From positions 1 through 42,649 of IMG/VR virus record IMGVR_UViG_3300020473_000052: a DNA stretch of 42,649 bases; one strand, 5' to 3'. Under the pieces are notes generated by a model that saw only the letters and a list, made by a program, of their open reading frames with translations, was not told where the DNA came from and searched no databases. This document shows positions 33,805 to 42,649 of the stretch, one piece after another; position 1 is the stretch's first letter, and each line of letters opens with the position of its first letter. The stretch is from a virus. The position numbers were made by a program, and so were the translations under genes.

Positions 33805-35754
33805 TTATTCCCTTTCCAATTTCCCATTTGAGTAACTTGAAGTGTAATAATCTCTAGAGAACACAACGCCCGATACATCTTCGCCCGAAGCAATTACATC
33901 CTTAACCATATTTATCTTAGTATTTGAAACATCAAAACTTAGGTATAAATCCTTTAACCCAATAACATCATTGGAATCTGGGAATGCTTGTATCTCAACT
34001 ATATCGTTAGGAGCGTTTGTTTCTGTTATGTTAATAGTATTTAATAGTATTTCACCTTTCTTATAATCAACTGTTCCAATTGATTTAACTATAACTCGTA
34101 ATTCATTCTTCTTATCTCTTGAAATTGCACTCAATACTCCTTTATGGCTGCCATCAAGCTCACCCTTATCATTCTTATTTGGAACATCAGTCAAGAAAAC
34201 AATATTATCTGAACCAGCAACCTTAAATCCAGTACTCTTAATATTAAATCCTTCAGGATTAATATGGAATTTATTACCAAAACACAATTCATACTGTGCA
34301 AATTGATTCACTAACACTTTCATATCCCTTCTAATCTTAACCTTAGTAATATTAGAAGTAATTGCAGAATCAACTCTATCAATTAATTGAAGTGCCTTAC
34401 TATACTTAAACCTACCACCAAACTTATTAATATCAATATTTTTGGAATAATCAGACAAAGTATTAGTAATATTTGATTTCAATTGATTTGAATTAGATAC
34501 TTGAGCAGAGTTATAATAGATTGTACTATCTAACTCAACATAAAGAACTTTAAGGTCAATAATGTCTGCATTAATACCAGCAATTGAATAACTCTTAAGT
34601 TTGTTTTTTATCTGTTGTTTGTCAAAATCTGATACATAAGTACCATTTTTGGGTTTGATACTGATCTGAACCTTACCAAATTGTGGGGGATCTAATTCTT
34701 CACCACCAACAACTGCAACTGACTCTGTTCTACTGTAAATGGAAGCAATAATTGCCTCATAATCCCTTCCTGTAACTGCTCTATATTGTGCTGAGTACAG
34801 TCTAGGTGCGAAATACTTAATAGAGGAAAGGTCTTCTTGTTCAGCACCGTTAGAGGCATTCTGAACGGTAGTTACTAAGATGCCACCATCAGGAATTACT
34901 GTTAATGCACCTATATCATTAGGGGTTTTATCTGTAAAAACACCTGCAAAGTCAAATTCTCCTATAGAACCTGATTTACCACCTGCACCATTACCTTCTT
35001 CACCATCAGTAATGAGGAATCTAACAGTAATTCTTGACCCGTTTTCCACCTTTTTACCAAAATAACCATCACCAAAGAGTATTTCATACTTTTCATCTTG
35101 TACTTCTTGTATAAAGAAGATCTCAGAGTTCTTATTAATGTTTAAAATGTTGTCTATTTTAGAAAATTCCCTTCCCATACCAGTATCAGAAGGTCCAGCA
35201 ACATAAACCTTGATGGTATTAGCATCAATGTCTGCATTTGATAGAATAAATCTCTGATCTTTTGATTGATTGATGATAAATTGCTTCTCTAATAGTGTTC
35301 CTTGTAGGACTTCAATGTCATTAAAGGTTGCTACACCATTAATTAAGGATGCAGTATGAGTTTCAAGTGTTGAGAACCTATATGTTGTTTCATTTGCCTC
35401 TCCAATACACACTAAACCAGGTTTTAAGTACAGTGTTTGTGCAGAATTGGAACTTGTAACAGGAAATGAGACTGTTGCCTTTGCAGCAGTTTTTGAACGG
35501 GGTACATAACCTATGTTACGAGCAAGAGAAACTACATTTTCTCTGATAACTGCAGAGTCTAGGAAGGTTTCATTCGCAACTAGGTTAGCATTGAAGGCAT
35601 TAATATAGGTATTATAGGCAAGTGTATCAATTAGGACACTAAAGTTAGATCCTTCAAAGTCAAAATCAGAAAAATTACTATTTGAACGAAGATAATCTCT
35701 TATTTGAGCCTTAATTTCGGTAAAATCTAAATTGGCAAACTGAGTAAATGGCAT
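33805..35754 (-). CDS. 6: baseplate wedge protein gp6
   Basis: 649 residues, close to T4 gp6 (660). gp6 forms the inner iris ring of the baseplate and belongs to the Baseplate-J superfamily. The N-terminus is diagnostic: FTQFANLDFTEIKAQIRDYL, then the DTLAYNTYINAFNANLVANE and ETFLDSAVIRENVVSLARN segments and the GYVPRSKTAAKATV stretch. Further on, KYFAPRLYSAQYRAVTGRDY near residue 310-330 and VVGGEELDPPQFGKVQISIK near 345-370 are typical. The C-terminus ends SYSNGKLERE. It starts four bases after gp25 and is followed at three bases by the giant gene. Confidence 0.95.
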   Translation of the reverse strand: MPFTQFANLDFTEIKAQIRDYLRSNSNFSDFDFEGSNFSVLIDTLAYNTYINAFNANLVANETFLDSAVIRENVVSLARNIGYVPRSKTAAKATVSFPVTSSNSAQTLYLKPGLVCIGEANETTYRFSTLETHTASLINGVATFNDIEVLQGTLLEKQFIINQSKDQRFILSNADIDANTIKVYVAGPSDTGMGREFSKIDNILNINKNSEIFFIQEVQDEKYEILFGDGYFGKKVENGSRITVRFLITDGEEGNGAGGKSGSIGEFDFAGVFTDKTPNDIGALTVIPDGGILVTTVQNASNGAEQEDLSSIKYFAPRLYSAQYRAVTGRDYEAIIASIYSRTESVAVVGGEELDPPQFGKVQISIKPKNGTYVSDFDKQQIKNKLKSYSIAGINADIIDLKVLYVELDSTIYYNSAQVSNSNQLKSNITNTLSDYSKNIDINKFGGRFKYSKALQLIDRVDSAITSNITKVKIRRDMKVLVNQFAQYELCFGNKFHINPEGFNIKSTGFKVAGSDNIVFLTDVPNKNDKGELDGSHKGVLSAISRDKKNELRVIVKSIGTVDYKKGEILLNTINITETNAPNDIVEIQAFPDSNDVIGLKDLYLSFDVSNTKINMVKDVIASGEDVSGVVFSRDYYTSSYSNGKLERE

Positions 35755-35758
35755 ATTA

Positions 35759-36160
35759 TTATCTGGTTGGTTCTAATAGGAATGAAAATGACTGAGTTGG
35801 AATTTGTAATCCAATAATATCGAATAAAACAACTACATTAAAAGCATTCATGTCTGGATAAGGGTCTATTTCACATCTTAAGTTAGTTACCCTTGGTTCA
35901 TAACGCATTACTGTCTCATTTATCTGATCTTCAATCACCATTGTGAGTGTAGGTGTAAAGTTTTCAAATAAACTTGCACGAATATCAGTTCCTATATTTG
36001 GATTAAAAAATCTTTCGTTAGGAATAGTTTCTACTAAATTCCTTACCGATCTTACAATCGCACGTTCATTTTTTAATATTGGTAGATCTTTGGTCACAGG
36101 ATGTGGTTCAAAAGAAAAACTAATATCTTTAAATGCTCTAGACTTTCGTGTTATTGACAT
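35759..36160 (-). CDS. 25: baseplate wedge protein gp25
   Basis: 133 residues, the same size as T4 gp25 (132). GPW/gp25 family proteins hold the inner baseplate together and connect to the sheath initiation; they were once called lysozyme-like. Signature text: FKDISFSFEPHPVTKDLPIL at the start, NERAIVRSVRNLVETIPNER, FFNPNIGTDIRASLFENF and the YEPRVTNLRCEIDPYPD segment. It is preceded by an exact TATAAATA at 36195-36202 and is the first gene of the leftward virion operon. Confidence 0.95.
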   Translation of the reverse strand: MSITRKSRAFKDISFSFEPHPVTKDLPILKNERAIVRSVRNLVETIPNERFFNPNIGTDIRASLFENFTPTLTMVIEDQINETVMRYEPRVTNLRCEIDPYPDMNAFNVVVLFDIIGLQIPTQSFSFLLEPTR

Positions 36161-38416: not shown

Positions 38417-38973
38417 TAGAAATAATTGACTGCTAATACTATTCTCTTACAAGTATCAGTACAAGTTGTACTGTGATGAGGTATACTACCATCATGTAAT
38501 AATATTCTATTTGCTACACTCTCTACCTTATTACCATCACTGAATATACCTTCTTCACTAAATCTTTCTTCTGGAGTAAACGAATCATTCTGTACCCAAT
38601 CATCATTAATCATACCAGTATAACCATTATTCGTATTCATATAGAGTAATGCTGCATTATGTGGATAATCATAATCTATATGGGGTTTATGTTTAATTAT
38701 CTTTCCTTGATTCATATACATTATTGCTCTTGCTCTGAGTACTGCTTTGACATCTAATGAATTAAACAATGGAAAGAGTTCATAATAAAAATCATCCTCT
38801 ATCTTACAGTTGTTATAAAAACTACTAATAAAATAAAACTGCTCACTATTTGGATCATCTTCAAGTGTTGCTACTCTTTCTTGAAGCGACCATCTAAAAC
38901 TTCCACTATACAATATTGCTCTGTTTAAGTGATCAAAGTACTCTTGATCTAAAGCATCATCAATAACTTGCAT
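38416..38973 (-). CDS. 2OG-Fe(II) oxygenase, prolyl-4-hydroxylase-like
   Basis: 185 residues with the classic layout: KPHIDYDYPHNAALLYMN (H98-x-D100 ligands), then NRILLHDGSIPHHST (distal His at 166 or 167) and CKRIVLAVNYF (R177, the 2-oxoglutarate-binding Arg). This is a double-stranded beta-helix dioxygenase of the prolyl hydroxylase type, as found widely in T4-like cyanophages. It overlaps the preceding small ORF by 14 bases and the next gene by one base (TAATG). Substrate is not determinable from sequence. Confidence 0.85.
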   Translation of the reverse strand: MQVIDDALDQEYFDHLNRAILYSGSFRWSLQERVATLEDDPNSEQFYFISSFYNNCKIEDDFYYELFPLFNSLDVKAVLRARAIMYMNQGKIIKHKPHIDYDYPHNAALLYMNTNNGYTGMINDDWVQNDSFTPEERFSEEGIFSDGNKVESVANRILLHDGSIPHHSTTCTDTCKRIVLAVNYF

Positions 38974-39130
38974 CAGCTAATATACTACTATCAAATACAA
39001 TCGACTCATAACTAAGTTCTTCTTTATAATACGAATGATATAACCTTCCCCATATAAGATCAAACTCTGATTGATCCAAATCTTTAAACAATACCTCTCC
39101 TCTTAAGTATATGTGAAAGGTATTAGGCAT
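38960..39130 (-). CDS. 56-residue conserved-type small protein (MPNTFH)
   Basis: Chosen start is the ATG at 39130, giving MPNTFHIYLRGEVLFKDLDQ. An in-frame ATG at 39157 would add nine residues but lies well inside the preceding gene, and I remember related cyanophage proteins as beginning near MPNT. The protein continues FDLIWGRLYHSYYKEELSYE and ends ILADASY. Function unknown. It overlaps the preceding 56-residue gene by eight bases. Confidence 0.72.
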   Translation of the reverse strand: MPNTFHIYLRGEVLFKDLDQSEFDLIWGRLYHSYYKEELSYESIVFDSSILADASY

Positions 39131-39293
39131 CTTCTGTAATAATAAGTTCTTCACCATCTGTCTTAAAATTTACTTCCGTATCTTCAAACCATCCTTGATC
39201 ATTTACTACCCATTCAGGTATTCTAACAAAATATTCACCAGATACTGTATCGACTTCTATGGGGCGTTTATCTTCTGGGTTATTTTTTAGCAT
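39123..39293 (-). CDS. 56-residue acidic hypothetical protein
   Basis: A short ORF: MLKNNPEDKRPIEVDTVSGE, then YFVRIPEWVVNDQGWFED and an acidic end (ELIITEDA). Not recognised. It is the first gene of a unit that runs through the oxygenases. A TTGCAA-17-TATAAT promoter lies at 39314-39342, 21 bases upstream, which supports it as a real gene. It overlaps the next gene by eight bases. Confidence 0.7.
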   Translation of the reverse strand: MLKNNPEDKRPIEVDTVSGEYFVRIPEWVVNDQGWFEDTEVNFKTDGEELIITEDA

Positions 39294-41612: not shown

Positions 41613-41626
41613 CAGAGTGTGCCAGT

Positions 41627-41884
41627 TTAAAGATTGGCACAGAAGTTGTGTACCCAATCAGGTAATCCCCATCCTCCCAAGGCAAACTCTTTGCGATGCA
41701 CAAGGCGTTGATAGATCTTTACAATCTCATTCAATTCCTCTATCTTGAGATCATCACCCTCCCAACACTCAAGGTAATCGGTGTTAGCAACATCAGGGTT
41801 TCCATCTGCAAAAGTTGGGCAACTGCAAAAATCTCCATCAGGTGAGATCCAGAAGTGCCTTCCTAAAAGTTCTGATTGAATCAT
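41627..41884 (-). CDS. 85-residue acidic hypothetical early protein
   Basis: MIQSELLGRHFWISPDGDFC, then FADGNPDVANTDYLECWEGD, a charged helix (LKIEELNEIVKIYQRLVHRK) and GGWGLPDWVHNFCANL. Cysteines at 20, 22 and further on are not in a clear metal-site pattern. No family recognised. -10 box TATTAT at 41914-41919 with the leader TATAAGAGAGTAAA; the stop is followed directly by ACTGGCACAC. Confidence 0.65.
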   Translation of the reverse strand: MIQSELLGRHFWISPDGDFCSCPTFADGNPDVANTDYLECWEGDDLKIEELNEIVKIYQRLVHRKEFALGGWGLPDWVHNFCANL

Positions 41885-42108
41885 TTAAATGTTCATTTGT
41901 GATTTACTCTCTTATAATACATCAGATTGCAGCGAATAGTCCAGAGAGTGTGCCAGTTTAATAAGTGGCATAAGACTGGTAGACTTTATGCTGTGATGAA
42001 TTATAATAAGAATAACAAAAGAGGAAGGTAGCAGAGATGTATCTGCTTGAACAATGATCGACACTCCCCCTGCAATGAATTATTATTAGTAACAAATATT
42101 AATGCCTA

Positions 42109-42132
42109 TGTGCCAGTTCATAAAGTGGCACA
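42109..42132. repeat. perfect TGTGCCA/TGGCACA inverted repeat
   Basis: TGTGCCA and TGGCACA flank a 10-base loop. It is the most complete hairpin form of the repeat family and is not at the end of a recognisable gene. Confidence 0.7.
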
Positions 42133-42139
42133 ACCTATG

Positions 42140-42289: not shown

Positions 42290-42430
42290 TTATACATGAT
42301 GCCTAGATGCAAGTGCGTCATATGATGTGTCTTGCCTGTATTCGTCATCTAGGTCATGATGATCATGACATGATGTAAAATCTAGTTCATAATATGATGA
42401 TGTGAAATCTCGATCAAATTCTGAGAACAT
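42290..42430 (-). CDS. 46-residue acidic hypothetical protein
   Basis: A short ORF: MFSEFDRDFTSSYYELDFTS, then CHDHHDLDDEYRQDTSYDAL and a short tail. It has an internal repeat of [DE]-x-D-F-T-S written in similar DNA. It is the first frame below two very strong promoters (TATAAT at 42454 is 24 bases upstream), which supports it, but there is no Shine-Dalgarno, it lacks the usual stop-codon element, and it is built of local repeat DNA, so it could be chance. Confidence 0.4.
   Translation of the reverse strand: MFSEFDRDFTSSYYELDFTSCHDHHDLDDEYRQDTSYDALASRHHV
42353..42369. repeat. 17-bp perfect palindrome
   Basis: GTCATGAT-G-ATCATGAC, two 8-base arms around a central G, within the 46-residue ORF. 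Possible binding site for a dimeric regulator. Confidence 0.6.
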
Positions 42431-42497
42431 AAAATCTAGTTGACTATATGAGTATTATATCATGATCTCGAACAGATGTCAACACGAAAATCTAGTT
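42377..42497. repeat. three AAAATCTAGTT direct repeats
   Basis: Exact copies at 42377-42387, 42431-42441 and 42487-42497, 54 and 56 bases apart. The third lies directly upstream of the -35 box of the promoter at 42454-42482. Confidence 0.75.
42454..42482 (-). promoter_or_regulatory. consensus sigma70 promoter (TTGACA-17-TATAAT)
   Basis: Minus strand: TTGACA at 42477-42482, a 17-base spacer and TATAAT at 42454-42459, a full consensus match. The spacer holds one TTCGAG repeat and another (TTCGTG) abuts the -35 box. Likely a very strong early promoter for the leftward region. Confidence 0.8.
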
Positions 42498-42624
42498 GAA
42501 AAAACACGAACAAGAACACGAAGATCTCGAACAGATCTCGAAGACATTATAACACGAAACACGCACGAAGTCAACACGAATGAAACACGAAGATCTCGAA
42601 GAGTTTTATGTGTGGATTCACGAA
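42467..42624. repeat. iteron-like array of twelve C(A/T)CGAA repeats
   Basis: CACGAA begins at 42483, 42505, 42517, 42553, 42564, 42575, 42586 and 42619; CTCGAA at 42467, 42526, 42537 and 42595. Four copies are exactly 11 bases apart (42553-42586), which places them on one face of the helix. The longer words GATCTCGAA and AACACGAA recur. Confidence 0.8.
42546..42574 (-). promoter_or_regulatory. near-consensus sigma70 promoter (TTGACT-17-TATAAT)
   Basis: Minus strand: TTGACT at 42569-42574, a 17-base spacer and TATAAT at 42546-42551. It shares the word TTCGTGTTGAC with the promoter at 42454-42482, so both were probably made by duplication or are under the same control. Confidence 0.75.
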
Positions 42625-42649
42625 AATTTCGCCCCTGTGACTTGACAAC

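Follow-up and report, generated by a model that had tools for sequence, protein, structure and literature searches.

Host-type early promoters of the form TTGACA-17-TATAAT, expected to be read by unmodified host polymerase and situated by small early genes, are known from S-PM2 and Syn9 (PMC2984593). The cyanophage locus described here shares these features and adds a conserved site cluster, a divergent promoter and a specific small gene. Cyanomyoviruses lack motA and asi; how they time the transcription of early and middle genes has been described as not yet clear, and a single theta origin has been predicted in Syn9 (PMC2984593). In T4, oriE likewise has direct repeats, the 12-nt iterons, beside an early promoter (PMC3016281). 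The repeats of the cyanophage locus differ in being often palindromic, in overlapping the promoter itself and in varying by lineage, and the skew test at the locus was negative. T4 oriE also lies upstream of gene 6, as the cyanophage locus does. The stoperators of mycobacteriophage L5 are many copies of a repressor-type site, some of them over a -35 box, as at our locus; they are asymmetric and scattered through the genome, whereas the cyanophage sites are clustered, mostly palindromic in relatives and attributed to a repressor that is only putative. The PeSL cassettes of T4-like phages, as they are described where PMC4503421 cites them, combine early promoters and palindromes in the gaps between small early genes; measured against that description, the CTCG(A/T)CGAG array of the cyanophage locus is neither a stem-loop nor spread out among genes. 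Promoter-operator regions and iterons are familiar kinds of element, and the present architecture, together with its new small-gene family, appears to be undescribed in the sources searched; no paper on the locus was found in the literature searched, a coverage from which subscription journals are mostly excluded.

The window, that is, the whole stretch of DNA analysed, is a complete contig of 42,649 bases from IMG/VR that is classed as linear, so that the array sits at a contig end. It is a whole contig of a P-SSM2-like cyanophage, with the Prochlorococcus phages P-SSM2 and P-SSM5 (Salacisavirus) and the single-cell contig AG-345-F15 as its nearest annotated relatives. The majority of its long open reading frames lie on the minus strand, as do the promoters P1 and P2, for which downstream therefore means leftwards. 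The features on which the analysis rests are as follows.

42642-42649, plus strand: -35 box of promoter P3 (TTGACA at 42642-42647), the rest being lost at the contig end.
42546-42574, minus strand: promoter P2, TTGACT-17-TATAAT, 11/12 consensus, with TTCGTG copies in the spacer.
42467-42624, plus strand: twelve C[AT]CGAA half-sites in the same orientation.
42454-42482, minus strand: promoter P1, TTGACA-17-TATAAT, 12/12 consensus, with the half-site TTCGAGAT in the spacer.
42376-42451, no strand assigned: additional repeat units ATCTAGTT and ATCTCGAT, spread over leader and small gene (family D3).
42290-42430, minus strand: small acidic-protein gene of 46 aa, homologous to PSSM2_098; the P1 -35 box is 52 nt upstream.
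39123-39293, minus strand: homolog of PSSM2_102 with a weak likeness to AbrB/MazE, on the same strand as P1 and 3 kb downstream of it.
35759-36160, minus strand: baseplate gene gp25, which serves as a synteny landmark and lies 6 kb downstream.
33805-35754: gp6, after gp25.

Pattern and protein searches of viral contigs yielded about 100 related loci. Among named phages the locus is present in P-SSM2 (Salacisavirus; at about 65.8-66.3 kb, with P1 at about 66.09 kb), S-SRM01 (Serangoonvirus), S-SKS1 (Llyrvirus) and S-T4 (Tamkungvirus), and in all of these, as in the window, gp25-gp6 follow it about 5-10 kb downstream. An apparent second array in S-T4 (MH412654) was discarded as a duplicate, the locus and its neighbouring genes being present near both record ends, which is probably a matter of terminal redundancy or assembly overlap. 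Searches against Rfam returned nothing credible for the window region, and in four relatives nothing reached the gathering score.

The array is genuine, and models of the whole window or of the region alike put it far beyond chance. Twelve C[AT]CGAA hexamers in about 160 bp had been reported from first inspection, and the count stands at 12 copies in 158 bp, with 0 inverted copies within 42440-42649. The whole window holds 32 such hexamers against 11.3 expected, a number that no shuffle attained, and a first-order Markov model of the array region produced on average 0.65 hexamers per 210 bp, and never more than 5, in 2000 draws. Neighbouring copies are separated by 16, 22, 12, 9, 11, 16, 11, 11, 11, 9 and 24 bp; the four steps of 11 bp, the two of 9 and the one of 22 bear out the reported spacing, from which only the 33-bp step is missing between neighbours. 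The helical phasing that the earlier note ascribed to the whole array, and the even, phased spacing to be expected of iterons in an origin, did not emerge from the comparison with random placement (P = 0.28), the best Rayleigh R being 0.625 at 11.6 bp and R at 11.0 bp being 0.33.

The promoters proved to be as first described, two near-consensus host-type promoters under the array, both with a 17-bp spacer and each with TTCGTG abutting the -35 box. Hexamers near the consensus at a spacing of 16-18 bp, as expected of sigma-70 promoters, are found in P1 and P2 and are conserved among relatives, P2 being common to close relatives only. Among 78 distinct loci, 29 have a 12/12 promoter at 17 bp, in a survey whose script chose a promoter other than P1 in a few loci. 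By a strict pattern, at least 64 of the 78 carry a repeat unit inside the spacer of P1, so that conserved sites overlap promoter elements as in an operator array, and further copies occur in relatives upstream of P1, in the leader and inside the downstream gene. Sites in the spacer and next to the -35 box of consensus promoters are placed where a repressor would use them. We consider it somewhat probable, on this comparative evidence, that the locus is a divergent early control region at which a phage protein occupies the sites and shuts the early promoters off.

The same geometry bears on a different role, in which the bound protein would activate by recruiting polymerase, or would bundle the region into a centromere-like or packaging-related nucleoprotein through which the promoters merely pass. 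That the sites span promoter, leader and gene fits such a role, as do the clusters in S-SRM01 that lack a strong promoter; an activator would be poorly served by positions in the spacer and beside the -35 box of consensus promoters, and we regard this explanation as improbable. The S-SRM01 clusters (MW015081, locus L106) lie at 88143-88252 and 90908-91005, within 6 kb, and are clusters of four CTCGACGAG-type sites.

The repeat itself varies by lineage. It takes the form C[AT]CGAA and ATCTAGTTGA in the window, ATCT(A/C)GTCGAGAT palindromes in P-SSM2, ATCTCGTA in locus L051, and CTCGACGAG in S-SRM01 and many other loci. The geometry, by contrast, stays constant while the repeat changes: a strong P1, a repeat unit in its spacer and copies around it. 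The earlier note had proposed looking for the array in related phages; its repeat spacing is conserved in part, an 11-11-9 bp block being common to close relatives, and farther out the repeat becomes palindromes. The same-orientation half-sites of the window resemble degenerated versions of the CTCG(A/T)CGAG-type palindromes of its relatives. From such comparisons, we take the window array to be the form taken in one lineage by a single-copy control region common to a large group of T4-like cyanophages. A site that differs by lineage within an unchanged geometry suggests that a regulator and the DNA it recognises have evolved together. Hardly any sites lie outside the locus in P-SSM2 and S-SKS1. 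A search for the small gene turned up no homolog in the cyanophages P-SSM4, P-HM1 and S-SSM7; these have no array, and CT(A/C)G(A/T)CGAG occurs in each of them at just two scattered places.

The small gene at 42290-42430 falls under the size cut-off of the list of open reading frames used. In relatives the P1 -35 box is mostly 50-70 nt upstream of an open reading frame of 42-69 aa, whose product is rich in Asp, Glu and Tyr and carries a C-terminal YARDxxDYxALAYRHYA pattern. With a pN/pS of 0.14 over 31 close pairs, which are partly non-independent, the family is under purifying selection. Its protein has no significant family in Pfam or PHROGs, an AlphaFold model was uninformative (pLDDT 60), and no paper naming PSSM2_098 turned up in the literature search. 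Leu-Asp-Glu is spelled CTCGACGAG in 73 of 97 cases within the family, compared with 0 of 25 in other P-SSM2 open reading frames. These codons run counter to genome usage, and the DNA site itself is most simply read as being under selection inside the gene.

This codon usage also weighs on the idea that the repeats have no function as DNA and are a drifting tandem or a coding by-product of a repetitive small gene. The repeat type does vary by lineage as though homogenised, and some repeats are coding; the site codons are nevertheless retained, the position in the spacer is kept across genera, and loci L022 and L065 have palindromes upstream and none in the gene. In the L010/L011 sublineage, moreover, the small gene is broken (read by eye; no open reading frame found), and array, P1 and P3 are kept, so that the array cannot serve the small gene alone. 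We judge a by-product of this kind very improbable.

A TTGACA at the right-hand edge had been taken as a hint of divergent transcription beyond the window, and relatives do carry a conserved TTGACA-17-(TGn)-TAnnnT promoter there. By hand count, TTGAC(A/G) stands 17 bp before the -10 position in 65 of 65 loci with enough sequence, and the same loci have an extended -10 TG in 64 cases and TAnnnT in 57. A conserved stretch follows P3, most often CGCTAAACTTGCATAAG or CGCTAAACTCACAAG. In relatives, P3 aims at the end of the upstream gene on the opposite strand and has no evident gene downstream, for which reason a short, noncoding transcript is probable. Past P3, several lineages (L014, L088, L105 and L108) have recurring copies of a further repeat, TTATTGAGAAT with its complement.

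A conserved divergent promoter without an evident downstream gene is also what a replication origin might contain. Here the sites would be iterons for a phage initiator, RNA from P3 (or P1) would prime the leading strand through an R-loop in the manner of T4 origins, and the overlap with the promoters would provide autoregulation. We hold this to be rather unlikely, and find slightly less plausible still the fuller proposal of an origin of this cyanophage group with lineage-specific iterons, a co-evolving initiator, an antisense noncoding P3 RNA as primer and an oriE-like position. A cluster of direct repeats does lie beside an early promoter, as in T4 oriE (PMC3016281), many sites are almost confined to one locus in P-SSM2 and S-SKS1, and the locus is upstream of gp25-gp6. 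Against this, the link between iterons and oriE activity is not established even for T4 (PMC3016281), and S-SRM01 has its extra site clusters. The GC skew at fourfold sites, furthermore, shows no switch in strand composition and no pole at the locus in P-SSM2, S-SRM01, S-SKS1 or S-T4. Such a switch is true of several T4 origins, not of all. DnaA boxes point both ways: S-SKS1 has three exact ones at the locus, in 21-bp steps, and there are none in P-SSM2, S-SRM01 or S-T4, so that we dropped them as a general feature of the locus. The earlier note had left the choice between a switch and an iteron origin, and it is the switch that gains from the P1-spacer geometry, its conservation and the co-occurrence of array and small gene, the origin having drawn no support from GC skew in the four genomes.

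Some observations on composition stand apart from this comparison. The three TTWTCCACA boxes of S-SKS1 (HQ633071, 151414-151464; locus L107), at exact 21-bp steps, lie beside tandem repeats next to the locus. In P-SSM2, a maximum of the all-base cumulative skew at 65,744 was rejected as support for an origin, as it marks the edge of a noncoding gap and vanishes at fourfold sites. The fourfold-site GC skew of this phage (L016, L018) is bipolar, with poles near 51 kb and 180 kb that are separated by roughly half the genome, though nearly all genes share one strand; these poles hint at replication direction and are unrelated to the array locus.

For the early control region that we favour, we infer transcription, a binding protein, repression and its timing as follows. 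Just after infection, host RNA polymerase would use the near-consensus P1, and here also P2, leftwards, giving transcripts that would cover the gene of the tiny acidic protein and the early genes past it, and P3 would yield a short noncoding RNA rightwards. Later, a phage protein, perhaps the AbrB/MazE-like one encoded 3 kb downstream, would bind the cluster of CTCG(A/T)CGAG-type sites, which in the sublineage of the window would have turned into same-orientation C[AT]CGAA half-sites. Since the sites extend from the upstream side over the -35 box and the spacer to the leader and the gene, occupancy should block polymerase and silence the promoters, perhaps through spreading across the region. 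The absence of the array from the three cyanophages in which the search found no small-gene homolog speaks for this scheme; against it, 10-16 sites in about 350 bp exceed what a simple operator needs, the two extra clusters of S-SRM01 lie away from strong promoters, and the candidate binder is only weakly AbrB/MazE-like.

That candidate came from a comparison of the small P-SSM2 open reading frames shared by all four array phages; few plausible genes among them are absent from all three controls. Possible DNA-binding proteins among these are PSSM2_164, with a helix-turn-helix-like stretch judged by eye, and PSSM2_102. The top Pfam match of the PSSM2_102 family is MazE/AbrB (PF04014), in 4 of 8 members with a best E of 0.013; the homolog in the window scores 13.5 bits against PF04014, below the cut-off of 24.7. 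Its structural model is of low confidence (pLDDT 65), and a fold search with it was not significant, AbrB, MazE and VapB being the main small-domain matches. The S-SRM01 homolog is annotated as 'DNA-binding domain-containing protein'. We treat the PSSM2_102 homolog as a candidate binder of the array and no more. A reading frame at 38960-39157, at one point taken for this homolog, is a different gene.

Two further kinds of element occur nearby. GTGCCAnTT...AAnTGGCAC palindromes are found at 41618-41640, 41949-41973 and 42109-42133 of the window and at 55-69 kb of P-SSM2; they recur by gene ends and ahead of plus-strand promoter-like sites, and a stretch resembling them has 14 match places, weak ones, in Microcystis phage Mic1. 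By analogy with the cassettes as cited in PMC4503421, they may be of PeSL type. The plus strand at 42030-42047 holds a hairpin, its loop GATGTA/RGGGTA, in which strong compensatory change is seen across 8 relatives, with 14 doubly changed cells against 0 of 500 shuffles on stems aligned by eye. Upstream of the hairpin is a plus-strand TATAAT (42002-42007), and a conserved CACTCCCCCTGCRATGAA stretch comes after it; the hairpin matched no Rfam family and is possibly an unreported small structured RNA.

A replication origin has so far only been predicted, in Syn9 (PMC2984593), and the locus makes the questions of origin and of transcription timing directly testable. In P-SSM2, a cultured model phage, it offers one defined place with candidate promoters, sites, a small-gene family and regulators. 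As such, the locus is a good place to study early-gene shut-off or the start of replication in these viruses.
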